This document shows positions 473-16,123 of a DNA stretch of 64,000 bases, in pieces. Positions within the stretch are counted from its first letter, which is position 1. Every line of letters begins with the position of its first letter. Made by a program: the position numbers and the translations under genes. The DNA lies in assembly GCF_001442625.1 (NCBI RefSeq), contig NZ_LMZQ01000027.1:1-64000 (forward strand). The letters are read 5' to 3'. The stretch comes from Pedobacter ginsenosidimutans. Lineage in GTDB: Bacteria > Bacteroidota > Bacteroidia > Sphingobacteriales > Sphingobacteriaceae. The notes beneath the pieces are model-generated. The model searched no databases. It was not told the origin of the DNA and worked only from the letters and a program-made list of their open reading frames with translations.

Positions 473-1183
473 ATGGCATTAAAAAGTGATTTAAGTTTGG
501 ATATCGATAAAATCTCATCTGATACAATGGCTGATGTGGTTGAAATGAGGTTAAGAGATTATTTCAAAAAGAAATCATTTAAACCTGGCGATGCACTGCC
601 GAAAGAGCAGGAACTGGCTGAAGCGCTGGGCGTAAGCCGAAACGTTTTAAGGGAAGCTTTAAGTCGCTTGAGGATGCTTGGCATGATTGAGACTAAGAAA
701 AAGAGGGGGATGATTTTATCAAGCCCTGATGTATTGGGTGGTTTTCAGCGTGTACTCGATCCGCTAATAATCAGTCCAGATGCACTACAGGATCTTTTTG
801 AGCTGAGGTTAATTTTGGAAATGGGTCTCGCTGATGTGCTTTTTTTGAATTTAAATGATAAAAGTATCCGTGAACTTGAAATAATTGCCAATAGCGAAAA
901 GAAAAAGAATAAAGAAGCATTCCGCATCGCCAATGAAATTGCCTTTCACGGTAAATTATATGAAATGGCTGGTAACGATACCTTAAAACGTTTCCAGCAT
1001 ATGCTTTTGCCAGTTTTTGGTTTTGTACTTCAGGTAGAAAATGAGTTCCTTTCAGGCAGTGTTAGCCATCAGGATTTGGTAGAAATTCTTAAATCTGGAA
1101 ATAAAAATGATTTCAGAAATGGAATGTACGAGCATCTAAAGCCTCATTTCGACCGACTGGAGGCATTAAAGAAAATAAATTAA
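473..1183 (+). CDS. GntR-family (FadR/FCD type) transcription regulator of the sialic acid locus
   Basis: This 236-residue protein has an N-terminal winged helix (about residues 17-85, with helix-turn-helix text ELAEALGVSRNVLREAL). An all-helical C-terminal domain of FCD type (about 95-230) has acidic and histidine residues suited to binding a metal and ligand. The family binds short palindromes of the form GTA-N-TAC. Four such sites sit in front of this gene, the hydrolase, the sialidase and susC. The inferred role is a repressor released by a sialic acid or ManNAc-type ligand, analogous to enterobacterial NanR but not necessarily orthologous. The start is the first ATG after a well-placed promoter. 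Confidence 0.85.
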   Translation: MALKSDLSLDIDKISSDTMADVVEMRLRDYFKKKSFKPGDALPKEQELAEALGVSRNVLREALSRLRMLGMIETKKKRGMILSSPDVLGGFQRVLDPLIISPDALQDLFELRLILEMGLADVLFLNLNDKSIRELEIIANSEKKKNKEAFRIANEIAFHGKLYEMAGNDTLKRFQHMLLPVFGFVLQVENEFLSGSVSHQDLVEILKSGNKNDFRNGMYEHLKPHFDRLEALKKIN

Positions 1184-1188
1184 GTTTT

Positions 1189-1222
1189 TATGTACTACAT
1201 ATTATTTTATTAATTACATTTG
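1189..1222 (+). promoter_or_regulatory. Operator O3 and promoter of the sialidase gene
   Basis: TATGTACTACATA at 1189-1201 precedes a TACATTTG -7 box at 1215-1222. The -33 position falls inside the operator, as at O1 and O2. It lies six bases after the stop of the regulator gene, so the sialidase probably has its own regulated promoter. Confidence 0.6.
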
Positions 1223-1274
1223 TTTTATGCAAGTCTGATTATGCTTGTGCTAACCAAATTAATTTCTTTAAGCT

Positions 1275-2444
1275 ATGTTTTACACCATCAAAAATCTGAA
1301 AAAGATTGGCGGGTTATGCTGCTTTTCTGCACTGATTTTGTGCTGCATAAATGTCACTTATGCAGCAACCCATATTGCGACGAGTAGAGTAGACAGTCTG
1401 AATTTCATTTTTAAAGCTGGCGAAAACGGTTATGCCTGTTTTCGTATTCCGGCCCTCATCCGTACTCAAAACGGAAGCTTGCTTGCTTTTGCCGAAGCGC
1501 GAAAAAACAATTGTGGCGATTCTGGAGATATTGATCTCGTGGTTAAACGCTCATTGGACAAGGGTAAAACCTGGACCGGATTACAGTTGGTTTGGAGCGA
1601 TTCGACCAATACCTGCGGAAACCCTGTTCCCATCCAGGATCAAACGACGGGCAATATCATTTTAATTTCTACATGGAATTTGGGTACAGATCATGAAAAA
1701 CAGATTATGGATGGCTCATCGAAAGACGGAAGGCATGTATATATGTTATCATCTGGTGATAATGGAAAAACCTGGTCGGCTGCAACAGAAATTACTGCTC
1801 AAGTGAAAAAAACAGGGTGGACCTGGTATGCAACCGGGCCATGCCATGGCTTACAGGTACTTAAAGGGAAATATGCCGGCCGATTGGTTGTGCCGATAAA
1901 CCATGTAGAAACAGGTACTAATCAGAATTTTGCACACACCATTTATTCCGATGATCATGGTAAGAGCTGGAATTTAGGCAATAACACGCCTCAGGATAAA
2001 ATGAACGAAACTACATTGGCCGAAATTTCGAAAGGGCGATTGATGTTGAACATGCGGAATAGTGACCGTACAATTAAAACAAGACATACCGCTATAAGCA
2101 AAGATGGCGGTCAAAACTGGGCAAATGTTCAGATCGATACTACTTTAATAGAACCTATCTGTCAGGGAAGTTTGCTGAGTCATTTTTATCGTAACAATAA
2201 ACCTACACTGCTTTTCAGCAATCCTGCAAATACAAAATTACGGGCAAATTTAACGTTACGTTTAAGCAAAAACGACGGTAAAACCTGGAAATATAATATG
2301 GTTTTACATCCTGGTCCATCGGCCTACTCAGATATTGCAGTAATAGACAAACAAATAATCGGCTGCTTTTTCGAAGCAGGATATGCAAAGCCGTATGAGG
2401 GCATTGTATTTAAAGCTGTAAACTATTCAGATTTAACAAAATAA
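1275..2444 (+). CDS. nanH: Secreted exo-alpha-sialidase, GH33
   Basis: The enzyme hydrolyses terminal sialic acids from glycoconjugates outside the cytoplasm. The 389 residues start with a signal peptide ending near VTYA (residue 30). The FRIP motif is at 56-59. Five Asp-box repeats follow the S-x-D-x-G-x-T-W pattern at 93-100, 160-167, 225-232, 275-282 and 331-338. By spacing against known GH33 enzymes the catalytic set is R57, D82 (acid/base), E245 and Y351 (nucleophile pair), with R261 and R323 completing the arginine triad. The single-domain length is normal. It is the extracellular entry step of the locus and sits behind its own operator. Confidence 0.93.
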   Translation: MFYTIKNLKKIGGLCCFSALILCCINVTYAATHIATSRVDSLNFIFKAGENGYACFRIPALIRTQNGSLLAFAEARKNNCGDSGDIDLVVKRSLDKGKTWTGLQLVWSDSTNTCGNPVPIQDQTTGNIILISTWNLGTDHEKQIMDGSSKDGRHVYMLSSGDNGKTWSAATEITAQVKKTGWTWYATGPCHGLQVLKGKYAGRLVVPINHVETGTNQNFAHTIYSDDHGKSWNLGNNTPQDKMNETTLAEISKGRLMLNMRNSDRTIKTRHTAISKDGGQNWANVQIDTTLIEPICQGSLLSHFYRNNKPTLLFSNPANTKLRANLTLRLSKNDGKTWKYNMVLHPGPSAYSDIAVIDKQIIGCFFEAGYAKPYEGIVFKAVNYSDLTK

Positions 2445-2449
2445 TTAAG

Positions 2450-2478
2450 GCCGATTAGTCATGTGATGATTAATCGGC
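2450..2478 (+). terminator. Hairpin between sialidase and susC
   Basis: Arms GCCGATTA (2450-2457) and TAATCGGC (2471-2478) pair perfectly, and the inner TCAT/ATGA can extend the stem. No strong T-run follows. It may be an attenuator, a partial terminator or an mRNA-stability element that separates sialidase expression from susCD. Confidence 0.5.
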
Positions 2479-2498
2479 AAATTTCTATACTAACCAAA

Positions 2499-2511
2499 TA
2501 TGTAGTACATA
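2499..2511 (+). promoter_or_regulatory. Operator O4 upstream of susC
   Basis: TATGTAGTACATA is the exact reverse complement of the O1 and O3 sequence. It lies 16 bases before the susC start. Unlike the other three copies, no TAnnTTTG box follows at the expected distance, so it may act as a roadblock or serve a non-consensus promoter upstream. Confidence 0.55.
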
Positions 2512-2527
2512 AATACAAATAATAATT

Positions 2528-5500
2528 ATGAGAAAAATTCTATTTATTTTCTTATTGGCCGCAATTAACCTCTGTGGTTTAACAGGAGCTGCACAAACAA
2601 CCGATATACAGGTATCGGGTACTGTTTCTGATGCGACAAAAAATGAAACGCTGCCAGGAGTAAGCGTAAAAGTAAAGGGTACCCAGACCGCGACTATTAC
2701 AGATGCAAATGGAAAGTACGCTCTACGGGCACCCCAGAATTCAATCCTTGTTTTTAGTTCTGTAGGTTATAACGAACAAGAAGTAAAGACTGGAATGGGT
2801 GGTATAAAAAATGTACAATTAAATCCAAATGCACAGTCTTTAACCGATGTGGTAGTAGTGGGTTATGTTAAGCAATCGAGAGAGAAAAATACAGCTGCAG
2901 TATCCAAGCTGGATACCAAACAACTGGTTAATACCGCTAATGCAGGGCCGATAGCAGCCATACAGGGTAAAATTGCAGGGGTTTCGGTACCGTTATCAAA
3001 CGGGCAGCCAGGTTCGGCAGGTACGAATATCATTATCCGTGGGGGTTCAAAACTTAATGTTTATGGAACGGGCACGGGTAATAGTGGTGGAGATCCTGTG
3101 TTATCTTCTGATGCATCAAGTCCGCTGGTTATTGTAGACGGTGTTTTCAGGACGATGAAGGATTTAAATCCGGATGATATCGAATCATTACAGGTAATGA
3201 AGGATGCGGCTTCAACAGCAATTTACGGTGCCCGTGGTGCAAATGGTGTAATTGTGATCAAAACCAAAAGCGGAAAATTTGGCTCAGGGAAACCTAATAT
3301 CACCTTTAACTACCGTACAAACTGGGAAACTCCATCACGGATGTATGATTATTTAAGTGCCAAAGACTACCTCACACTTGCCAGAACAACAGCAAAAAGC
3401 ACTTTCGATTTAATTGATAAGAATACACTTTTAAATAATGGCGGTTTTTCTGCAGGAACAAAAGTGTACACGGCCAAAGGCCAGTATGGCGTTGGAACAA
3501 ATTTAACAGCACTATACGATAACATTGTAGCAATTGAAGGCCAGGGATATGTAGATAATTTATTGGCCAACGGCTGGCAAACTATGGATGATCCGATTAA
3601 TCCGGGTACTAAACTGTTATTTGCCGATAACAACTATCAGGATCTGCTTTGGAATACCGGTATAAGCAATAATTACAATTTTGGGATTGATGGAGGCAGC
3701 CAGATTGCTACTTACAATATATCAATGAACTACGTTGATCAGGCTGGTACTTTTGTGGGCACAAGCTATAAAAGATACAGCGCGCTTGGAAATTTTGGGT
3801 TTAAAGCAAGCGAAAAACTACAGATCAATGCCATGCTTAACTACCAGAATGTACTGCCAAATTATGTAGATGCTTATACTAATGATCTGGTCCGAGCTAC
3901 ACGCATTACGCCTCTGATCAGAATTTTTAAAGATGACGGTACACCAACGACAGGCGAAAACCTAACGACAAGAAATCGCTTTCATACGTTGGCCTACGAT
4001 AATACCAAAGCATCAACTGAACGATTGGTTTCGAGGGTAGATGCAGATTGGGCTATTGTTAAAGGCCTACATTACAGGCCAGCTTTGTCTTACTTAATTA
4101 GCGATGACAAAACTATTTTTTCAAGAAAAGCATTTCCCGATCCGATCCAGTTTGCAACCACCCGGTTAAAAACGGAGAATACCAACAACACCCGTCAATT
4201 GATGATCGATCAGATCCTCCAATACGATTATACTTTAAAAGAAAATCATCATTTTACCGCATTGGCTGGTTTTAATTATACCAAAAATGATGGGAACAGT
4301 ATCGATATAGGTTCACAACGTGGAACCAACGATTACATTACCACGATAAATGAACCAACTGTAACCACGATTAACGGTGTAACAGTAACCAATGTTACCA
4401 ATTTCGGAACACGGATCAGTCAAACCAAATCTGCCAGCTTTTTTGGTCAGTTGAGTTACGATTATAAAAGTAAGTACTTATTAAGCGGCGTATTGCGGAA
4501 CGATGGTTTTTCAAATTTCGCGCCCGAAAATAAATGGGCATTATTTCCGTCGGTTTCTGCGGGATGGAATATCCATAAAGAAGATTTCTGGAAATCGAAT
4601 GTAGTGAGCACCTTAAAACTTAGGGGAAGCTGGGGACAGGCAGGTTCTAGCGATTTAGATTTAACCGATACTTATGGAAGTTATACCTCAGCGGTTTATG
4701 GGCAGAATTCAGGCATCCAACGTGCAAACTTATCCAATCCGAACCTGGTTTGGGAAACCACACAAACAACTGATGTTGCAGTAGAGGCAGGTTTTTTTAA
4801 GAATAGGGTGAATCTTACTGTCGATTTATATGATAAACTAACCAAAAATCGCATCGATTCTAAACCATTGCCAGCAGAGGCCCCATTTTCTACCATTACA
4901 TTCAATAACGGAACAATCCAGAACAAAGGGATAGAAATCGAGCTTCAGGCAACTGTGTTGAAAATGAAAGATTTCGCCTGGAACGCCAATTTCTCTTTTG
5001 CCTACAACGCGCAAAAAGTAATCAGTTTACCTAATAATGGCAGGTTAAAAAATAGACAGAATGGAGGCGTTGTCATCGATCCGAATACCGGTAAAGAAAT
5101 TGAAGTGGGCGGATATGCAGAAGGCGAACGTCCGTTTGGTTACTATGCCTGGCAGGTAGAGAAGGTTTTTTCTACAGAAGCTGAAGCTGCTGCATGGGGT
5201 AAAGTAGATCAGATTGCTACGGCGGCCGGTATAACCGTAGGTAAACATGCGGGAGATTACAAGTTTGCAGATTTAAACAACGATAACATCATCGATAACC
5301 GCGATATGGTATTTATGGGTTATAAAACGCCAAATAAAATCGGAGGTTTTCAAAATACATTTACCTATAAAAGTTTTACCCTTAGGGTTAACATGGATTA
5401 TGCTCTAGGCTTTGTAATCTCCGATGGCGCATTGGCCAGATCTTTAGGACAGGGCAGGGCCTATAATGAAGGTGCCCCGGCACAAGCATTAGGGAATGAT

Positions 5501-5875
5501 ATCTGGCAAAAATCTGGTGATGTAGATAAATTATATGCCCGTTTCTCTTTTGGCGACGCTGATTTCGGACAGAAAAACTTTATCAGACAGGGAGCAAGTA
5601 CTGTAGGTACCGGAAGTGGTTATGCATCGGATGTTTCTACCATGATTTCGAAAGGAGACTTTTTAGCATTGCGCGAAATTTACCTGAGTTACGATCTGCC
5701 TAAAAACATCATGTCGAAAATCGGTTCAACCGGAATGAGTGTTTTTGCGAGCGTTACCAACATTGGTTACCTCACTAAATACAAAGGGTTGAATCCTGAA
5801 ACTTATACCGGGTTCGATCCGGGAGGTTATCCTCGTCCAAGGCAGTTCACCTTAGGCGCATCATTAAGATTTTAA
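2528..5875 (+). CDS. SusC-family TonB-dependent outer membrane transporter
   Basis: This 1115-residue outer membrane protein imports oligosaccharides or sugars together with its SusD partner. After a signal peptide (cleavage near residue 22) comes a carboxypeptidase-D-regulatory-like domain (about 28-100). A DVVVVGY stretch at 107-113 follows, then the plug with the SusC signature VIVDG at 201-205 and YGARGANGVIVI at 233-244, and a beta barrel to the terminal F. It is 11 bases upstream of susD and behind operator O4. Placement between sialidase and sialate lyase indicates free or oligomeric sialic acid as the cargo, although cargo is not readable from sequence alone. Confidence 0.93.
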   Translation: MRKILFIFLLAAINLCGLTGAAQTTDIQVSGTVSDATKNETLPGVSVKVKGTQTATITDANGKYALRAPQNSILVFSSVGYNEQEVKTGMGGIKNVQLNPNAQSLTDVVVVGYVKQSREKNTAAVSKLDTKQLVNTANAGPIAAIQGKIAGVSVPLSNGQPGSAGTNIIIRGGSKLNVYGTGTGNSGGDPVLSSDASSPLVIVDGVFRTMKDLNPDDIESLQVMKDAASTAIYGARGANGVIVIKTKSGKFGSGKPNITFNYRTNWETPSRMYDYLSAKDYLTLARTTAKSTFDLIDKNTLLNNGGFSAGTKVYTAKGQYGVGTNLTALYDNIVAIEGQGYVDNLLANGWQTMDDPINPGTKLLFADNNYQDLLWNTGISNNYNFGIDGGSQIATYNISMNYVDQAGTFVGTSYKRYSALGNFGFKASEKLQINAMLNYQNVLPNYVDAYTNDLVRATRITPLIRIFKDDGTPTTGENLTTRNRFHTLAYDNTKASTERLVSRVDADWAIVKGLHYRPALSYLISDDKTIFSRKAFPDPIQFATTRLKTENTNNTRQLMIDQILQYDYTLKENHHFTALAGFNYTKNDGNSIDIGSQRGTNDYITTINEPTVTTINGVTVTNVTNFGTRISQTKSASFFGQLSYDYKSKYLLSGVLRNDGFSNFAPENKWALFPSVSAGWNIHKEDFWKSNVVSTLKLRGSWGQAGSSDLDLTDTYGSYTSAVYGQNSGIQRANLSNPNLVWETTQTTDVAVEAGFFKNRVNLTVDLYDKLTKNRIDSKPLPAEAPFSTITFNNGTIQNKGIEIELQATVLKMKDFAWNANFSFAYNAQKVISLPNNGRLKNRQNGGVVIDPNTGKEIEVGGYAEGERPFGYYAWQVEKVFSTEAEAAAWGKVDQIATAAGITVGKHAGDYKFADLNNDNIIDNRDMVFMGYKTPNKIGGFQNTFTYKSFTLRVNMDYALGFVISDGALARSLGQGRAYNEGAPAQALGNDIWQKSGDVDKLYARFSFGDADFGQKNFIRQGASTVGTGSGYASDVSTMISKGDFLALREIYLSYDLPKNIMSKIGSTGMSVFASVTNIGYLTKYKGLNPETYTGFDPGGYPRPRQFTLGASLRF

Positions 5876-5886
5876 CATTTAAAAAC

Positions 5887-7338
5887 ATGAAAATGACTAA
5901 GAAATATATCCTGCTTTCTGTTATCGTTGTAATAGCAGCAGCTTTTTCATCTTGCAAAAAATTACTCGAAGTTAAACCGCAATCGCAGATTACCGATCAG
6001 GTTTACTTTAAAAGTGAAGGCGATTTTCTTCCCTATGTTACCGGAACATATACTTCCATCAGGGCCTTTGCCAATTCTATTACCTACGGTACCGAACGGA
6101 GTGAAGAGCTCATAAATGGAACCAACAGCCGTTTAACAACGGTATGGTCACAGATATTAAGCCCAACAGTAGGTGCTTTAAACTACAATGGGCAATATAA
6201 AGCCATTGGTAACTGTAATCTCCTGCTCAGCAAAATAGAGCCTTTTCCTTTTTCTAATGCGGCTACGAAGAACAGGTTAAAGGCCGAAACACTTTGTCAA
6301 CGTGCCTATACTTATTTTTATCTGGTGAGGATTATTGGCGATACGCCATTGATGCTCGAAACCATTACCGATGATAATGTTCCGCTTTTGCCAAGGGCGA
6401 AAGCCACTGAGGTGATGAAACAGGTTTTCGCCGATTTAGATCAGGCTATAGCCCTTTTTCCTGAAAAAACTTACGTATCCAAATACAGGTTTTCGTATGG
6501 CGCTGCATTGGCGTTAAAAGCCGAAGCCAAATTATGGAGTGCCAAAGTATTGGCTGGCGGTACGGCAGATTTCAACGACGCGATCACGGCTGCTGCTGCA
6601 GTAGAAGCTACAGGCGTTTCATTATTGAACAACTTTAAAGATGTAACCACAACGAGGGCAAATGCTGAAGTAATCATGTCGGCCTATTATAACCGTGATG
6701 AAAATGGTGCAAACTATGGTTTAAATGCTTTGCCATTTTTAACGGCGATTTCAAATGCATCCAACCTGGATAGCATTGCTTATGCGCTTACTTCTGTTAA
6801 CGGACAGGGTGGCTACCAGATCAGTAAAGAAAGCAGGACACTTTTTAGTGGCCTAACCAATGATAAACGTGTGCCAAATACCTTTATCATTGAAAGACAG
6901 GGAACCGTACAAAAGAGCGCATGGATTACCAAAATGCCGGGCACCAAATACGCTGATGACCGGGTTTCTGATAATGATGTCATCATGTTCAGACTGGCCG
7001 ATATTTATATGATAGAAGCCGAGGCTTATGCCGCACTCGATAATACCGCACAGGCAATTGTGTATTTAAATAAAGTTAGAAATAGGGCCGGAAACGGAGG
7101 TTATACGGGTGCAACTGATAAAGCCACCGTAGAGCGCGCCATCTTTGACGAACGTGGCCGTGAGTTTTTCTTCGAAAACAAGCGCTGGTACGATATAGTA
7201 CGCTTTCATTTCGGCAGTACGATAAACGCCTATACTTACGTACCTAACCTGAAAAATAAAACGGTGCCTTTATTCTGGCCATTATCTACAACGGTTTTGG
7301 CGGCAAATCCAAATCTGGTGCAAACACAAGGATATTAA
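5887..7338 (+). CDS. SusD/RagB-family surface glycan-binding lipoprotein
   Basis: The 483 residues start with a lipoprotein signal ending FSSC, with C23 as the lipidated cysteine. The mature protein begins with the family's KLLEVKPQSQI-type sequence, carries TPR-like helices, and ends with the usual FENKRWYDIVRF segment. SusD proteins cap the SusC barrel and bind substrate at the cell surface. A second in-frame ATG two codons downstream (5893) would give an equivalent signal peptide. The stop codon overlaps the next start by one base, so translation of the two genes is probably coupled. Confidence 0.93.
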   Translation: MKMTKKYILLSVIVVIAAAFSSCKKLLEVKPQSQITDQVYFKSEGDFLPYVTGTYTSIRAFANSITYGTERSEELINGTNSRLTTVWSQILSPTVGALNYNGQYKAIGNCNLLLSKIEPFPFSNAATKNRLKAETLCQRAYTYFYLVRIIGDTPLMLETITDDNVPLLPRAKATEVMKQVFADLDQAIALFPEKTYVSKYRFSYGAALALKAEAKLWSAKVLAGGTADFNDAITAAAAVEATGVSLLNNFKDVTTTRANAEVIMSAYYNRDENGANYGLNALPFLTAISNASNLDSIAYALTSVNGQGGYQISKESRTLFSGLTNDKRVPNTFIIERQGTVQKSAWITKMPGTKYADDRVSDNDVIMFRLADIYMIEAEAYAALDNTAQAIVYLNKVRNRAGNGGYTGATDKATVERAIFDERGREFFFENKRWYDIVRFHFGSTINAYTYVPNLKNKTVPLFWPLSTTVLAANPNLVQTQGY

Positions 7339-8129
7339 TGCGATCATTTATGAAAAACGAATCGTTATTTAATTATAAAACACTCAGTAGGGAAGAATTG
7401 ACGTTTTTTAGCGAAAACGGCTATCTCATCATCAAAGCTATTTTAAAACCCGAAGGTTTGGCTCAGATGCAAAAAGAGTGTATGGAAGCCTGGGGTAAAG
7501 AAAAAGAGACCTTCGATCCGAATAAAAGCTGGCTCCAAAACGCCTTGTTGATTAATATTCACCATCAGGCTGCAACAGTAAAGGAATACTATTTTAACGG
7601 TCCGCTGGTTGAGATGGCCTCAGAAATTATTGGTCCGAATATAAAAGGAGCTACCTCACAGCTTACATTTAAAATGAAAGGGAATACAAAATCTTTTGGC
7701 TGGCATCAGGATAATGGGTATGGCGAATTAGAGCCTTATAACGCCTTAACCACTTTAACTGCGCTTGATGATACCGACCGGGGCAATGGCTGTTTGTGGT
7801 TAATTCCAGGTAGCCATAAAAACGGCCAGATCAGGGTAGAGCAGAATGAAGCGCAAAAGAAAAGTGGCGCTGAAATTATAGTAGAAGCCGACGATAGTTT
7901 AGCTGTACCGATGGAAATGAAGGCAGGAGATGTTTTGATTTTTAACTGTTGGATGCTTCATAAATCAGATGGTAATATTTCTGATAGCAGAGACCGAAGA
8001 ATCCTGTTTTTGAGATATGCCGACGCCGATGCGATAGAAGTGTACAACGAAGGCAAACCCCGCTTAGGTAGATTGGTGAAAGGTAAAACGAAGTTTAAGG
8101 AGGTTGAAGAGTTTGAAGCCAATCTCTAA
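7338..8129 (+). CDS. Phytanoyl-CoA dioxygenase (PhyH)-family Fe(II)/2-oxoglutarate enzyme
   Basis: Residues H123, D125 (HQD) and H208 form the HxD...H iron triad, and R220 or R221 is placed to bind 2-oxoglutarate. The 263 residues match the family's usual length and no signal peptide is present, so it is cytoplasmic. The start overlaps the susD stop by one base; an alternative ATG lies four codons in (7350). Such an oxygenase is not a step of any described sialic acid pathway. Hydroxylation or oxidative removal of a substituent from a modified sialic acid is a possibility suggested only by context. Confidence 0.85.
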   Translation: MRSFMKNESLFNYKTLSREELTFFSENGYLIIKAILKPEGLAQMQKECMEAWGKEKETFDPNKSWLQNALLINIHHQAATVKEYYFNGPLVEMASEIIGPNIKGATSQLTFKMKGNTKSFGWHQDNGYGELEPYNALTTLTALDDTDRGNGCLWLIPGSHKNGQIRVEQNEAQKKSGAEIIVEADDSLAVPMEMKAGDVLIFNCWMLHKSDGNISDSRDRRILFLRYADADAIEVYNEGKPRLGRLVKGKTKFKEVEEFEANL

Positions 8130-8138
8130 AAAATATTA

Positions 8139-9068
8139 ATGGATACATTAACTGCAAAAACATTAAAGGGAAATTGGGCAACGTTGTTGTTGCCCATCCA
8201 AACTGACCAAACGATTGATTTTGGATTATTGGCTGATGAAATAGATTATTTGATTGATGCGAAAGTAGATGGGATTTATTCGAACGGAACAGCAGGTGAG
8301 TTTCACAATCAAACTGAAGCCGAGTTTGATCAGATTAATCGGCTGTTTGCAGAAAAATGCCAGAAAGCATCAATGCCTTTTCAGATAGGCTGCAGTCATC
8401 CTTCGCCGGTTATTTCATTAGAAAGGATTAAGAGATCAGTAAGCCTAAAGCCAAGTGCTTTTCAGGTGATTTTGCCAGATTGGGTAGTTCCTTGTGATGC
8501 TGAACAGATAGATTTTTTACAGGGAATCGCAAACCATTCAAACGGAATTCCTTTGGTGTTATATAATCCACCGCATGCAAAGCTGGAGTTAAAGCCAAAA
8601 GATTACCTCCAATTTAAAACAACAGTACCATCACTTATTGGTATTAAAGTTCTAAGTAAAGATGTGGCTTGGACCGAAGAAATGAAGGCGTATGCAAGCC
8701 ATTTATCAATATTCGTCCCTGGCCATTTTTTGGCGAGTGGTGTAAAGGCGGGCATTGCAGCCGGGGCTTATTCAAATGTTGCCTGTATCAATCCATCTGC
8801 AGCTCAACACTTATGGAAACTGATGCACACAGATATGGATGAGGCTTTGAGGATAGAAAAAAATATTCTCGAATTCTTTAAAAGATGCATCGCTCCTTAT
8901 CAAAGACAACAGTACAGCAACCCGGCATTAGATAAGTTTTTAGCAGCAGTTGGTGGCTGTATTCAGATTCCAACACGATTAAGGTGGCCCTATAAATGGA
9001 TTTCGGATTCAGATATAACATCGGTGCGCAAACAGGCCAAATTATTAATACCAGAATTTTTTAATTAG
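8139..9068 (+). CDS. DapA/DHDPS-superfamily lyase or aldolase, paralogue of NanA
   Basis: This 309-residue TIM-barrel protein has the Schiff-base lysine K170 (GIK), the conserved Y142 (VLYNPP), and an NGTAGE loop at 49-54 in place of the GTTGE of DHDPS. Members cleave or form pyruvate C-C bonds. It starts 9 bases after the dioxygenase and ends 17 bases before nanA, so the three are one transcription unit. It is clearly diverged from the neighbouring NanA and so probably acts on a different 2-keto acid, possibly the dioxygenase product. The substrate is not predictable here. Confidence 0.8.
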   Translation: MDTLTAKTLKGNWATLLLPIQTDQTIDFGLLADEIDYLIDAKVDGIYSNGTAGEFHNQTEAEFDQINRLFAEKCQKASMPFQIGCSHPSPVISLERIKRSVSLKPSAFQVILPDWVVPCDAEQIDFLQGIANHSNGIPLVLYNPPHAKLELKPKDYLQFKTTVPSLIGIKVLSKDVAWTEEMKAYASHLSIFVPGHFLASGVKAGIAAGAYSNVACINPSAAQHLWKLMHTDMDEALRIEKNILEFFKRCIAPYQRQQYSNPALDKFLAAVGGCIQIPTRLRWPYKWISDSDITSVRKQAKLLIPEFFN

Positions 9069-9085
9069 ACAAATACAAAATACAT

Positions 9086-9997
9086 ATGAAAATTAACGGC
9101 ATAGTTGCTGCAACATTTGCGGCCTACCAGGCAGATGGTTCCTTAAACCTCGCCATAATACCCCAACTAGTAGATAAATTAGTAGCTGATGGTGTGGCAG
9201 GGGTTTACATTTGCGGAACCAATGGAGAAGGACCAAACATGACTGTTGAAGAGCGGATGGCCATTGCCGAAGCGTACGTAAAAGCTGCAAATAAAAGGAT
9301 TTTAGTATTGGTGCATGTAGGGCATACTTCCATAAAAGAATGTAAAAAGCTTGCAGCCCATGCAGCACAGATTGGTGCCGATGCATTTTCTTCAGTAGCT
9401 GCATTTTATTTTAAACCCACCTCGGTACAAAACCTGGTCGATTGTATGGCCGAAATCGCTTCTGCTGCTCCCGAACTCCCATTTTATTATTACCATATGC
9501 CAACTTTAACCGGCGTTGGGATGGATATGGTTGAGTTTTTATCGATCGGAGAACAAAAAATTCCAAATCTTGCCGGCATAAAATATACTGCATCAACACT
9601 TCACGAGTTTCAGGCCTGTTTAAACTACAAGGATGGGGAATTTGAAGTATTATCAGGCTATGATGAGATGTTGCTAAGTGCTTTGGCGGTAGGTGCTGTT
9701 GGTGCCATTGGTAGTACCTACACCTTTGCCGCGCCGGTATATCTCGAAATAATCAAACTTTTCAGAAATAATGATTTAACTGCTGCCAGGGCATTACAAT
9801 TAAAAGTGGTCGATTTTATCCGCTGCATTATCAAACATCCATCGATTGCGGCGCAAAGAGCGATTATGAAAATGATGGGTTATGATTTAGGAGATGCCCG
9901 GTTACCATTGGTACCGCTTTCTTCTGATAAATTTATCGAACTTAAAGCCGATTTAACTAAGACTGGCTTTTTTGAGCTCCTCGAAAAATATAGGTAA
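9086..9997 (+). CDS. nanA: N-acetylneuraminate lyase
   Basis: The enzyme cleaves Neu5Ac into ManNAc and pyruvate in the cytoplasm. The 303 residues contain the Schiff-base lysine K166 within GIKYT, the catalytic tyrosine Y136 in YYYHMP, and the loop GTNGEG at 44-49. Length and order are those of the NanA branch of the DHDPS superfamily. The genes around it (sialidase, mutarotase, MFS importer) support this substrate. The ManNAc-processing genes expected downstream are absent from the window. Confidence 0.9.
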   Translation: MKINGIVAATFAAYQADGSLNLAIIPQLVDKLVADGVAGVYICGTNGEGPNMTVEERMAIAEAYVKAANKRILVLVHVGHTSIKECKKLAAHAAQIGADAFSSVAAFYFKPTSVQNLVDCMAEIASAAPELPFYYYHMPTLTGVGMDMVEFLSIGEQKIPNLAGIKYTASTLHEFQACLNYKDGEFEVLSGYDEMLLSALAVGAVGAIGSTYTFAAPVYLEIIKLFRNNDLTAARALQLKVVDFIRCIIKHPSIAAQRAIMKMMGYDLGDARLPLVPLSSDKFIELKADLTKTGFFELLEKYR

Positions 9998-10034
9998 TGC
10001 TTAAAAGCATGCAAATTTTCTATAGGCACATAAT

Positions 10035-11159
10035 ATGAAACACTTTAATACCTTACTTTTTATAAGTTTTATGTTGATATCAACAGCAGGTTCTGCACAG
10101 ATTACCAAAAAAACAAATCAATTTGCATGGGGAGAATTGCCAGCCATACCAGATAATTTCGGCTTTGCCGGCTCTTTTAGCGGCGTATCTGGCGATGCTT
10201 TAATTGTTGCAGGTGGAGCCAATTTTCCTGATGGTGGAGCACCATGGTCAGGCTCCAAAAAAGTTTGGAACGATAAAATATTTATCCTGGATAAACCCAA
10301 TGGAAAATGGAAAGTAGCAGGCAAACTTCCTGAATCTTTAGGTTATGGGCTCTCCATTTCCTGGGGCAAACAATTCATTTGCATCGGAGGAAGTAACGAG
10401 AAAGGCCATTCGGCAAAGGTTTATGCTATTCTTTATAAGGATAAAAGTATCAGCATCAATACGTTGCCAAACCTGCCGCAACCCATAGCAAATACCACTG
10501 GAGCCGTTTTAGGTAATGTTATTTACCTCGCAGGCGGACTCTTTACACCTGAAGCCGATCATACCGCCAATGTTTTTTGGTCTTTCGATCTATCTTCAAA
10601 AGGAAAAAAACGGGTTTGGCATAAATTAGAAACCTGGCCTGGTCCTCCGCGAATGTTGGCCGTGGCTGGTGTTGCCGATCAAACTTTTTATCTTTTCAGC
10701 GGAACCGATCTGATCAAAAATAATAAGGGAGGCGTAGATAGACAATACCTGACGGATGCCTTTTGTTACAGCGCTGCTGCCGGGTGGAAAAAAATAGCTT
10801 CTCTACCAAAAGCCATTGTAGCTGCCCCGTATCCAGCCTATAACGATCATCACAAATCGCTACTCATATTCGGTGGTGATGATGGCGTGCTTGCGCCAAA
10901 AGCAGCTGTGCTAAAAGAAAAACATCCTGGTTTCTCAGATGAAATATTAGCTTACGATGTAGAGAAAAATAAATGGTCGGTAGCAGGGAAAGTGCTAAAG
11001 AATATCAAAGCAGATGCGCAATCAAATCCCAATAACAGTACCTGGCCTGCGGTAACAAACACAATGGTGCTGTGGCAGGGAAATCTTGTTTTTCCGGGTG
11101 GAGAAGTAAGGCCAGCAGTAAGAACACCAAAAGTGATCATAGCGAGACCAAAACATTAA
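10035..11159 (+). CDS. nanM: Cyclically permuted kelch mutarotase, sialic acid mutarotase NanM-like
   Basis: The signal peptide ends GSAQ near residue 22, which places the 374-residue protein in the periplasm. The diagnostic run GGANFPDG is at 60-67, and further glycine-pair kelch blades follow (for example GGLF near 166 and FGGDDG near 281). NanM speeds the conversion of alpha-Neu5Ac, as released by sialidase, to the beta anomer. It is sandwiched between nanA and the inner-membrane importer, as expected for a periplasmic step between SusCD and transport. Confidence 0.88.
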   Translation: MKHFNTLLFISFMLISTAGSAQITKKTNQFAWGELPAIPDNFGFAGSFSGVSGDALIVAGGANFPDGGAPWSGSKKVWNDKIFILDKPNGKWKVAGKLPESLGYGLSISWGKQFICIGGSNEKGHSAKVYAILYKDKSISINTLPNLPQPIANTTGAVLGNVIYLAGGLFTPEADHTANVFWSFDLSSKGKKRVWHKLETWPGPPRMLAVAGVADQTFYLFSGTDLIKNNKGGVDRQYLTDAFCYSAAAGWKKIASLPKAIVAAPYPAYNDHHKSLLIFGGDDGVLAPKAAVLKEKHPGFSDEILAYDVEKNKWSVAGKVLKNIKADAQSNPNNSTWPAVTNTMVLWQGNLVFPGGEVRPAVRTPKVIIARPKH

Positions 11160-11188
11160 AATTATTTTAACAAGAGGAAAATCTAGAA

Positions 11189-12421
11189 ATGACCGGTACA
11201 AAATCAAATCAATCATATTATGCCTGGGGCCTGGTTGCACTCCTTTGGATAGTGGCCTTTTTAAATTATTTCGATAGGATCATGATTACCTCTATGCGCG
11301 ATCCTATTGTGAAAGAGTTTGCCCTTTCTGATGCCCAGTTTGGGCTTTTAACTTCTGTTTTTCTTTGGTCTTATGGGATATTAAGTCCTTTTGGAGGTTT
11401 TTTGGCAGATAAATACAGCAGGAAAAAAGTAATTATATTCAGTGTTTCGGTATGGTCTGCAGTAACCTTGTGGACAGGCTTTACCTCTTCATTTGAAGAA
11501 ATGCTTGTTTCGCGTTTTTTTATGGGCCTGAGCGAAGCCTGTTATATCCCCGCGGCATTAGCGCTGATTACGGATTATCATAAAGGAAAAACAAGATCGC
11601 TTGCTACGGGTTTGCACATGAGTGGCCTTTATGCAGGTTTAGCATTGGGCGGCTTAGGTGGTTATATTGCCGAAATATGGGGCTGGAGATATGGTTTTCA
11701 TGTTTTCGGAATATTTGGAATTCTCTATTCGGTTGTACTGTTGTATTATTTAAAAGATATTAAACAAGCAACGACAGAAAATGAGGCAGAAGAGGTAGAA
11801 AAAGAAACCATAAGTTTATTAGGTTCGGTTAAGATCCTATTTAAGGAGCGGTCTTTTCTGGTGCTGCTGTTTTATTTTAGTGTTTTGGGTACCGCAAACT
11901 GGCTGGTTTATGGTTGGTTGCCCACCTTTTTAAAAGAACATTTTCACCTCAAGCTGGGCGAAGCCGGAATTTCGGCAACAGGTTATATCCAGATCGGATC
12001 TTTTGTTGGGGTAATTTTGGGTGGTTATTTTGCCGATAAATGGTTTCTTAAGAATAAGAGAAGCAGGGTTTTTATGATCATTATCGGCTTTACTGTTGGC
12101 GCACCATTTTTATTCCTCATGTCGTCAACCACGGTATTCGCAATAGCAATTATCGCCATGTTCTTTTTTGGTATAGCCAGAGGAATAAACGACGCTAATT
12201 TAATGCCTGTACTCAGGCAGATTGCCGATAGCAGGTATATAGCTACCGGATATGGTTTCCTTAATTTCCTGAGTACAATTATAGGTGGTTTAATGGTTTA
12301 TGTTGGTGGCGCATTAAAAGATGCCAAAGTAGATTTATCTATTATTTACCAGGTTTCGGCGGTGCTAATGTTATTGGCAACATGGTCGCTATTTGCAATA
12401 AAAATTAAAAAAGGCGCTTAA
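11189..12421 (+). CDS. nanT: MFS inner-membrane transporter, probable sialic acid importer
   Basis: This 410-residue protein has about twelve hydrophobic helices. The NYFDR motif in helix 1 and a DKYSRK loop between helices 2 and 3 are typical of organic-anion MFS carriers. It is the last gene of the locus and sits before a strong terminator. In other Bacteroidota nan loci the importer is also an MFS protein. The sialic acid assignment rests on context. Confidence 0.8.
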   Translation: MTGTKSNQSYYAWGLVALLWIVAFLNYFDRIMITSMRDPIVKEFALSDAQFGLLTSVFLWSYGILSPFGGFLADKYSRKKVIIFSVSVWSAVTLWTGFTSSFEEMLVSRFFMGLSEACYIPAALALITDYHKGKTRSLATGLHMSGLYAGLALGGLGGYIAEIWGWRYGFHVFGIFGILYSVVLLYYLKDIKQATTENEAEEVEKETISLLGSVKILFKERSFLVLLFYFSVLGTANWLVYGWLPTFLKEHFHLKLGEAGISATGYIQIGSFVGVILGGYFADKWFLKNKRSRVFMIIIGFTVGAPFLFLMSSTTVFAIAIIAMFFFGIARGINDANLMPVLRQIADSRYIATGYGFLNFLSTIIGGLMVYVGGALKDAKVDLSIIYQVSAVLMLLATWSLFAIKIKKGA

Positions 12422-14664: not shown

Positions 14665-14700
14665 ATACAGTATCAGTTTTGTATATTTGTATGGATACAG
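14665..14700. promoter_or_regulatory. Candidate MocR operator and promoter between divergent genes
   Basis: ATACAG repeats directly at 14665-14670 and 14695-14700, 30 bases apart. Near-palindromes ATACAGTAT (14665-14673) and GTATGGATAC (14689-14698) overlap them. A TATATTTG -7 box for the MocR gene lies at 14682-14689 between the copies. MocR proteins commonly bind direct repeats in their divergent promoters. Confidence 0.45.
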
Positions 14701-14710
14701 TTTGTCGATT

Positions 14711-16123
14711 ATGGAAAAGGTTTATAGGTACAATGAAATAGCAAGTGGAATTGCCGCACAGATTAGAGACGGTATTCTGCGATCGGGGGATAAACTTCCT
14801 TCCGTTCGAATGCTCTGCAAGGAATATGCAGTAGGCATGAATACGGCAAAACGTGTATTTTTGGAACTGGAAGCACAATCGTTGGTCGAAGCTAAGCCAC
14901 AATCGGGTTTCTTTGTAAGCAACCGTAGGGTAGAACGACTTCCGCTACCTGCAGTTAGTAAACCGTCATTAATTGCAAATCATCATGAACCTAGCGAACT
15001 GAGTACCCGGGTGTATTCTAGCATTGGTCGCGGTGATTTAACCCTTTTTTCAATTGGTGTTCCATCAGGCAGCCTGTTACCATTGGCAAAACTCAAAAAG
15101 GAGATACTTTATGCTACACGGGCGCTTAAAGAAGGGGGAACAGAATATGAACCACTTCAGGGCAATGTTAAATTACGCAGAATGGTTGCGGTACGATCGT
15201 TAGGCTGGGGAGGAAACCTTCATGAAGATGATCTGATTACTACTGCTGGCGGAGTGAATGCATTATCTTTTTGCCTGATGGCTTTAGGCAAACCGGGCGA
15301 TACTGTGGCCATAGAAAGTCCATGTTATCCCGGAATTCTCCAGCTGGTAATCAGTTTAGGTTTAAAAGTACTCGAATTGCCCACGCATCCGGTTACGGGC
15401 ATTGAGATAGATGCACTTAGGAAAGTGGTGTCGAAAATTGATATTTGCCTGTTAATTCCCAATTTTAATACTCCGTTGGGTAGTTGTATGCCCGATGCGC
15501 ATAAAAAAGAAGTTGTTCAGCTTTTGGCTGCAAGTAACATTCCACTTATTGAAGATGATATTTATGGTGATCTTTATTTCGGCACCCAACGACCAAGATG
15601 TTGCAAATCATTTGATACTGAAGGTAATGTGCTGTGGTGTAGCGCGGTTTCGAAAACCTTGGCGCCAGGATACCGTGTAGGTTGGGTAGCTCCCGGAAAG
15701 TATAAAGAAAAATTACTTAAACTAAAACTTGTACATGCCCTTGCTTCAACTTCTGTTATTCACGAAGCTGTTGGCAATTTTCTAAAAACTGGTCGGTACG
15801 ATCGCCATTTGCATCAGCTCCGTCGTACCTTACAGCACAACTACCAGCATTTTATCGATGCGGTTACCGAATATTTTCCAGAGGGTACAAAAACAACCCG
15901 GCCACAGGGTGGACTTGCCATATGGATAGAATTTAACAAAGAAGTTGATGCTGTAAAACTCTATGAACTGGCAATGAAACAAAAAATCAGCATTGCCCCG
16001 GGCCCGATGTTTACCTTGCAAGACCAATATCAGAACTGTATCCGCCTTTGCATAGGCCTTCCATGGTCTGATGAGCTTAAATTTAAACTAAAACAGTTAG
16101 GGAATCTGGCAAAAATGATGTGA
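14711..16123 (+). CDS. MocR-type regulator (GntR winged helix fused to class I aminotransferase domain)
   Basis: Residues about 1-72 form a GntR winged helix (GDKLPSVRMLCKEYAVGMNTAKRVF), and 100-470 an aminotransferase fold. The PLP lysine is K315 in SAVSKTLAPG, and an EDDIYGD segment at 281-287 supplies the cofactor-binding aspartate. The ATG at 14711 is preferred over the in-frame TTG at 14687, because that TTG overlaps the TATATTTG promoter box. By family, PLP or an amino compound is the ligand. It is divergent from the EamA-PaiB-GNAT operon and probably controls it. Confidence 0.88.
   Translation: MEKVYRYNEIASGIAAQIRDGILRSGDKLPSVRMLCKEYAVGMNTAKRVFLELEAQSLVEAKPQSGFFVSNRRVERLPLPAVSKPSLIANHHEPSELSTRVYSSIGRGDLTLFSIGVPSGSLLPLAKLKKEILYATRALKEGGTEYEPLQGNVKLRRMVAVRSLGWGGNLHEDDLITTAGGVNALSFCLMALGKPGDTVAIESPCYPGILQLVISLGLKVLELPTHPVTGIEIDALRKVVSKIDICLLIPNFNTPLGSCMPDAHKKEVVQLLAASNIPLIEDDIYGDLYFGTQRPRCCKSFDTEGNVLWCSAVSKTLAPGYRVGWVAPGKYKEKLLKLKLVHALASTSVIHEAVGNFLKTGRYDRHLHQLRRTLQHNYQHFIDAVTEYFPEGTKTTRPQGGLAIWIEFNKEVDAVKLYELAMKQKISIAPGPMFTLQDQYQNCIRLCIGLPWSDELKFKLKQLGNLAKMM

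Follow-up and report, generated by a model that had tools for sequence, protein, structure and literature searches.

Two adjacent genes in a sialic acid operon of Pedobacter ginsenosidimutans encode a PhyH-family Fe(II)/2-oxoglutarate (2OG) oxygenase, here named PhyHA, and a diverged DapA-fold Schiff-base lyase, DapA2. They lie in a 64,000-nucleotide stretch of contig NZ_LMZQ01000027.1 (the window), and we suggest, with about even confidence, that they form an accessory oxidative branch of sialic acid (amino-sugar or nonulosonate) use in Bacteroidota. This suggestion draws on the gene families, the active-site residues, the sialate-binding pair that DapA2 has lost and the co-occurrence of the genes elsewhere; the substrate, the order of steps and the chemistry we infer from these. 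Sialic acid catabolism is commonly depicted as a lyase, an epimerase, a kinase, a deacetylase and a deaminase. A sequence-only reading of the window had proposed a step outside described N-acetylneuraminic acid (Neu5Ac) catabolism, and a side branch fits our findings. While the families of the proteins are known, their module and its predicted chemistry appear, as far as we found, to be undescribed; no description of the PhyHA/DapA2 combination was found in those parts of the open-licence literature that the searches covered. A conserved oxygenase branch shared by several genera would bring O2- and 2OG-dependent chemistry into sialic acid catabolism and give a testable function to a PhyH protein family; it might also help explain genomes with NanA and without a recognisable N-acetylmannosamine (ManNAc) epimerase. 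Both proteins are small and look soluble from their sequences. Pedobacter is a genus of environmental bacteria.

Active sites of PhyHA and DapA2

The earlier reading had placed a PhyH oxygenase with an intact HxD...H triad and a diverged DapA paralogue between susD and nanA, 9 bases apart, and both coordinates and residues were confirmed. PhyHA (7338..8129, +, 263 aa) passes the gathering score of PF05721 (111.7 bits vs 22; E 7.7e-32), and its ATG shares one base with the susD stop. Most orthologues begin at the position of Met5, so the true start is probably 7350. No signal peptide is visible, which suggests a cytoplasmic protein. In an alignment of 40 sequences, the window's included, H123 (codon 7704..7706, the first Fe ligand), D125 (7710..7712), H208 (7959..7961, the third Fe ligand) and R221 are invariant. 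Enzymes of the hydroxylase type keep the Asp of this triad, while halogenases of the fold are without that acid. As D125 is present and invariant, we rejected a halogenase identity and predict that PhyHA is an Fe(II)/2OG hydroxylase. Its AlphaFold2 model (mean pLDDT 85.9) has SnoK (5epa) as top Foldseek match, with MysH, proline hydroxylase H11, GriE and EctD among the other relatives (about 16-23% identity). At only ~20% identity, these fold matches do not name a substrate.

DapA2 (8139..9068, +, 309 aa) begins 9 bases after PhyHA (gap 8130-8138) and ends 17 bases before nanA. It passes PF00701 (69.6 bits vs 22.1; E 2.3e-19), and its AlphaFold2 model (mean pLDDT 91.7) is a NanA/YagE-like barrel whose top Foldseek match is E. 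coli NanA (2wo5, 20% identity); for DapA2, too, the structure search points to no substrate. Y142 (codon 8562..8564; E. coli NanA Y137 in the residue map) and the Schiff-base lysine K170 (8646..8648; K165), both previously pointed out as kept, are invariant in 19 sequences, the window's included. All 19 keep Gly46, Glu50, Tyr137, Lys165, Gly189 and Ser208 (E. coli NanA numbering), and all have the alanine of GTAGE at the Thr48 position. This alanine had been contrasted with GTTGE, but the window's NanA reads GTNGE and E. coli NanA GSTGE, so the contrast is weaker than first stated.

In this alignment, all 19 DapA2 sequences have a His at Tyr190 and a gap at Asp191 and Glu192, which we take to be the sialate-binding pair of E. 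coli NanA. H146, K148, P194-G195-H196, S212-N213 and A215-C216 are likewise invariant in DapA2, with other residues in the compared NanA rows. The window's own NanA retains Asp191, Glu192, Thr167 and Ser208. Because the sialate-binding Asp/Glu are lost though the Schiff-base residues are kept, we infer that DapA2 is a Schiff-base lyase for a compound other than Neu5Ac, probably one for 2-keto-3-deoxy sugar acids rather than a NanA. It also misses the NCBIfam equivalog cut-offs for NanA (45.4 vs 281 and 50.1 vs 382 bits) and for DapA of lysine biosynthesis (65.5 vs 206.15 bits). Since the window's NanA likewise falls below the NanA cut-offs (173.5 vs 281 and 150 vs 382 bits), these alone are not decisive, and a second NanA was rejected mainly on residues. 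The side pathway proposed earlier is therefore retained in part: the pair belongs to sialic acid loci, but DapA2, without equivalents of Asp191/Glu192 in any of the 19 sequences, does not look like a cleaver of sialic acids.

Distribution and co-occurrence

Each protein was sought in the same 251 family genomes (below, genomes are numbered G and fetched loci L). Close PhyHA orthologues occur in 7 (74-80% identity, plus the window), DapA2 in 19 (window included; the others at 50-72% identity) and a window-type NanA (at least 48% identity) in 34. Five further genomes, with a PhyH match at 27-31% identity, past 1e-20, were excluded from the orthologue count. All seven PhyHA genomes also carry DapA2 and window-type NanA, and 15 of the 19 DapA2 genomes carry this NanA. 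By Fisher's test over the 251 genomes, unadjusted and ignoring relatedness, p = 5e-7 for PhyH with NanA and 4e-9 for PhyH with the DapA-like gene. As a control, none of the five loci with a distant PhyH paralogue has a sialidase, NanA or DapA2 label; one (L119) has an SGNH-esterase-like gene. Four of the 19 DapA2 loci (L034, L035, L039, L040) are without NanH or NanA at 200 bits. Phylum-wide, DapA2 is rare (5/395 genomes at 1e-80, two of them outside the family).

Scanning GTDB species genomes with two exact peptide patterns, which makes the counts a lower bound, gave 43 loci with a PhyHA relative, 42 at 50-95% identity; the remaining one (L084, 30%) was excluded as an orthologue. The two surveys overlap, L044, L048 and L050 being G035, G001 and G021, and L042 and L043 closely match the window. 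In the fetched loci, genes were called mechanically as longest open reading frames, and labels come from hidden Markov models (HMMs) built from the same loci, with seeds partly named by eye; labels below about 100 bits were disregarded unless Pfam-confirmed. Seventeen loci are Bacteroidota-type: 15 by title, L054 (taxon unstated) and L052, a Williamsia metagenome-assembled genome (MAG) with SusC/SusD. NanH (at least 100 bits) is present in 15 of these, NanA in 13 and either or both in 16 (the exception is L066). DapA2 is found in 12, an NHL propeller in 6, a second PhyH (PhyHB) in 5, and a D-2-hydroxyacid dehydrogenase (HDH) and an enolase-superfamily sugar-acid dehydratase (MR) in 4 each. The co-occurrence of PhyH and DapA-like genes, on which the sequence-only reading had staked its proposal, is thus borne out, in seven of seven PhyHA genomes and with NanH or NanA in 16 of 17 loci. 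The other 25 loci are titled as Planctomycetota- or Verrucomicrobiota-type (24) or Actinomycetota (one), many on short contigs. The L052 record, titled Williamsia sp., holds SusC/SusD and a Chitinophagaceae-like nan locus, and is probably mis-binned.

Close relatives of PhyHA come from Pedobacter sp. Bi126 (95% identity) and ISL-64 (94%). A tree was built from 40 PhyHA and 6 outgroup sequences; many of its forks are without firm support. Ten nan-locus sequences from Sphingobacteriaceae and Chitinophagaceae, the window's among them, cluster together in it (91/92). A second group (92/83), made up of L064, L065, L066 and L068, lies inside a larger, mostly Planctomycetota/Verrucomicrobiota set, and L051-L054 are unresolved. 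The nan association is therefore either old or has arisen twice. Of the 43 scan loci, the alignment and tree omit L043, L047, L056, L081, L083 and L084; some family loci that duplicate these are also omitted. We rejected a plasmid or viral origin, as plasmids gave no PhyH match at 1e-30 and the viral contigs searched held no DapA2 relative. The orthologue at L081:780-1514, on a MAG contig, has two in-frame stops and is either a pseudogene or an assembly error.

Neighbouring enzymes and the predicted chemistry

HDH and MR occur together in PhyHA loci L049, L052, L053 and L064, and accompany DapA2 in L049, L053, L064 and L034 (with Pfam/NCBIfam support for L049, L064 and L034). In L034 and in G282 (L122/L107; HMM label only), they stand with DapA2 and no PhyHA in the fetched stretch. 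An aldo/keto reductase follows DapA2 in L034 and L107. With a sugar-acid dehydratase and a hydroxyacid dehydrogenase as neighbours, a 2-keto-3-deoxy acid fits DapA2 better than an intact nonulosonic acid. Other sugar-acid-type enzymes adjoin PhyHA, namely a UxuA mannonate dehydratase after it in L061 and a FAH-family hydrolase before it in L078. The FAD-dependent DAO-type oxidases near PhyHA in L055 and L059 do not fit a sugar-acid reading. L059 also has two DapA-fold genes (61 and 86 bits) and, by eye, aminotransferases, and PhyHA adjoins a YebC gene in L057, a DUF1287 gene in L076 and a DUF3472 gene in L075. Such ill-fitting neighbours suggest that the wider PhyHA family may have other roles.

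Outside nan loci, the DapA2 of L040 lies beside SDR, HpaI-type aldolase, aldo/keto reductase and Gfo/Idh genes. These surroundings resemble a recurring cassette by SusC/SusD, comprising PhyHB, a NanT-like MFS transporter, a HEAT-like protein, an HpaI-type aldolase and an aldo/keto reductase (L112:8123-13146, L113:9242-14190 and L115:9573-16027, the last adding Gfo/Idh and SDR; labels partly by eye).

The propeller is an NHL protein of ~315 residues with no signal peptide by eye. It is present at 497 bits or more in 8 of the 251 genomes, namely six of the seven PhyHA genomes plus G151 and G204; 63 genomes match it at 1e-40, those beyond the eight being paralogues of at most 452 bits. It adjoins PhyHA or PhyHB in L049, L050, L064 and L111, and DapA2 in L107. 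The gaps are -1 (PhyHB-propeller) and 11 bases (propeller-PhyHA) in L049, and -4 and 10 bases (PhyHB-propeller) in L064 and L111; in L107 the propeller overlaps the longest DapA2 frame by 8 bases, or lies a few bases from it if the first ATG is used. A locus of N-acetylglucosamine (GlcNAc) type (L110:488-16967) combines the PhyHB-propeller pair with GH20, an amidohydrolase read as NagA, a NagB-family protein, glycerate kinase and a GntP permease. The propeller's best solved enzyme relative is the PAL lyase domain (E 5e-9), although TRIM-type NHL domains match it as well or better. H74, Y144 and H176 (L022 numbering; invariant in 6) align with 3fvz positions 94, 163 and 199, which, at one constant offset, we take to be PAL H585, Y654 and H690 (two Zn-ligand His and the catalytic Tyr); the alignment does not place PAL's third Zn-ligand His or Arg533.

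In the branch that we propose, PhyHA would most likely oxidise the imported sugar, or a derived acid, at a carbon beside an N-acyl or O-alkyl hetero-substituent, and the product would break down to a keto compound and a released fragment. Where encoded, the PAL-like propeller may aid this cleavage. In the fuller loci, HDH and MR would next turn the product into a 2-keto-3-deoxy sugar acid, with which DapA2 would form a Schiff base, yielding pyruvate and an aldehyde. Of these enzymes the window operon has only PhyHA and DapA2, and here the other steps would come from elsewhere in the genome or be unnecessary.

A more specific version borrows from peptide amidation. PAL cleaves an N-C bond once a hydroxylase has acted, which suggests an acetamide-expelling route for PhyH and propeller. 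In this catabolic counterpart, PhyH would hydroxylate the carbon bearing the N-acetyl group of ManNAc, GlcNAc or an aldonic acid; acetamide would be expelled, by the propeller or by spontaneous decay where it is missing, to leave a 2-keto sugar or aldonate, and HDH, the dehydratase and DapA2 would take this to pyruvate and an aldehyde. We consider this version unlikely; if true, it would be an oxidative path for amino sugars that needs neither epimerase nor deacetylase.

Several findings weigh against the proposed branch. The propeller was not found in the window genome (searched at 1e-40) and is absent from 11 of the 17 Bacteroidota-type loci as fetched, and so cannot be obligatory. HDH and MR appear in just 4 of these loci, outside the window operon, and in most of the 18 other family DapA2 loci they were not seen within 20 kb. 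Near a distant PhyH in L116 (31% identity), an NHL-propeller paralogue (444 bits) lies within 20 kb with no sialidase, so that pairing is not confined to sialic acid loci. A sialidase of at least 100 bits occurs in just 3 of the 25 other PhyHA loci (L067, L070, L071), so a tie to sialic acid does not extend to the whole family. Finally, 12 of the 19 DapA2 genomes are without a PhyHA orthologue, and L023, L026, L046 and L047 have the two in separate gene groups; the genes are thus separable. They could even be unrelated passengers in a sialic acid locus, acting on different compounds. We think this quite unlikely, since DapA2 is present in every one of the seven PhyHA genomes (p = 0.001 within the 34 genomes that carry NanA), the association persists across genera despite varying gene order and paralogue sets, and PhyHA from two parts of the tree is found in nan loci.

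It is possible, though rather unlikely, that PhyHA is instead an O-demethylase or O-dealkylase of methylated sialic acids, releasing formaldehyde and passing the sugar to NanA, with DapA2 as an additional lyase that takes a variant nonulosonic acid; this comes near to what was guessed from the sequence before. Solved PhyH relatives do include hydroxylases of polar small molecules (EctD, MysH, EvdO1), and sulfatase-like and SGNH-esterase-like genes in some loci (seeds named by eye) could strip other decorations. Nine of the 25 other PhyHA loci have a gene labelled sulfatase (100 bits or more), which may make methylated sugars plausible there. However, DapA2 is without the sialate-binding pair, the linked HDH, MR and propeller are left unexplained, and no formaldehyde-handling gene was noticed in the loci, no model search having been aimed at such genes. 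Oxidation of the N-glycolyl group of N-glycolylneuraminic acid (Neu5Gc), a common sialic acid variant, was also suggested previously and seems very improbable. NanA can in principle cleave Neu5Gc unaided, oxidising the glycolyl carbon alone would presumably not free the amine, and record titles, for what titles can tell, hint at origins in soil or plants (Pollutibacter soli, Flavihumibacter soli, Leaf194) rather than hosts where Neu5Gc is met.

KdoO hydroxylates C3 of Kdo, and PhyHA might similarly hydroxylate C3 of a nonulosonic or 2-keto-3-deoxy acid, with DapA2 releasing hydroxypyruvate and HDH reducing this to glycerate. E. coli NanA structures with hydroxypyruvate (by title; 1fdy, 1hl2), the hydroxypyruvate reductase models among the HDH matches (all below cut-offs) and the glycerate kinase of L110 agree with such a route. 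Its catabolic gain is unclear with NanA present, though, MR or UxuA would have no part in it, and HDH is found in few of the Bacteroidota-type loci (4/17). We find this route distinctly unlikely.

The operon, the missing epimerase and known systems

PhyHA and DapA2 belong to a single operon (473-12421, +). It begins with a NanR-like GntR/FCD regulator (473..1183; PF00392 and PF07729; top NCBIfam match the NanR subfamily at 76.9 bits, below its cut-off of 260), followed by a GH33-type BNR sialidase, NanH (1275..2444; PF13088; top PDB sequence matches all sialidases, foremost 4fj6, E 1.1e-47), a SusC/RagA TonB-dependent transporter (2528..5875; TIGR04056, 686.6 bits) and a SusD-like lipoprotein nearest NanU (5887..7338; PF07980/PF14322; NF033072 157.5 bits, below its cut-off of 425). 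Downstream of the pair are the NanA-type lyase (9086..9997; PF00701, E 4e-57), a NanM-like cyclically permuted Kelch mutarotase (10035..11159; PF24996; TIGR03548 below its cut-off) and an MFS transporter (11189..12421; PF07690). With sialidase, SusC/SusD and NanA, this is by gene content a nan-type locus. The window start falls inside a gene truncated by the contig start, and outside the operon, at 14687-16123, lies a MocR-type GntR/aminotransferase regulator, nearest PdxR below cut-off. Elsewhere, a NanM-like Kelch domain is fused to a sodium:solute symporter (L029:14340-16919, L030:12916-15519, L033:10613-13216).

The window genome (G000) yielded no NanE and no true AGE, and has no AGE match at 1e-40. 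Its weak PF04131 match lies inside a 531-aa frame that, from length and position, is probably IMP dehydrogenase, and the sole full-length PF07221 match looks like a cellobiose 2-epimerase because it sits, by eye, in a mannan-use cluster. AGE is absent from 6 of the 7 PhyHA genomes (G228 has one) vs 10 of the 27 remaining genomes that carry window-type NanA (unadjusted Fisher p = 0.035). This shortage is suggestive only of a link to PhyHA. We rejected it as proof of replacement by PhyHA, given those ten and given that, in six AGE-less relatives with window-type NanA, the nan loci have neither PhyHA nor DapA2 (L095-L100). The NanA match in L095 (G125:C8:63539-64432) lies in a 1180-aa open frame, perhaps a fusion with operon neighbours.

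Compared with known systems, the operon shares GntR, GH33-type sialidase, SusC, NanU-like SusD, NanA, NanM-like mutarotase and MFS transporter with Bacteroidota nan loci, and differs from them in adding PhyHA and DapA2 in a genome where no NanE or true AGE was found. DapA2 shares the TIM barrel, Lys, Tyr, G-T-x-G-E and Ser208 equivalent of the NanA/DapA class I aldolases, but scores far below their equivalog cut-offs and has a gap at Asp191/Glu192. PhyHA has the fold and HxD...H Fe site of SnoK, MysH, EctD, proline hydroxylase H11 and EvdO1, to which it is about 16-23% identical; the searches of open-licence papers turned up no member described in sialic acid catabolism. An analogue for PhyH plus propeller is the peptidylglycine alpha-amidating enzyme (PHM and PAL): although the PHM oxygenase uses copper while PhyH is an Fe/2OG enzyme, the loci with a propeller set an oxygenase gene beside an NHL protein in which a His, a Tyr and a second His align with PAL.

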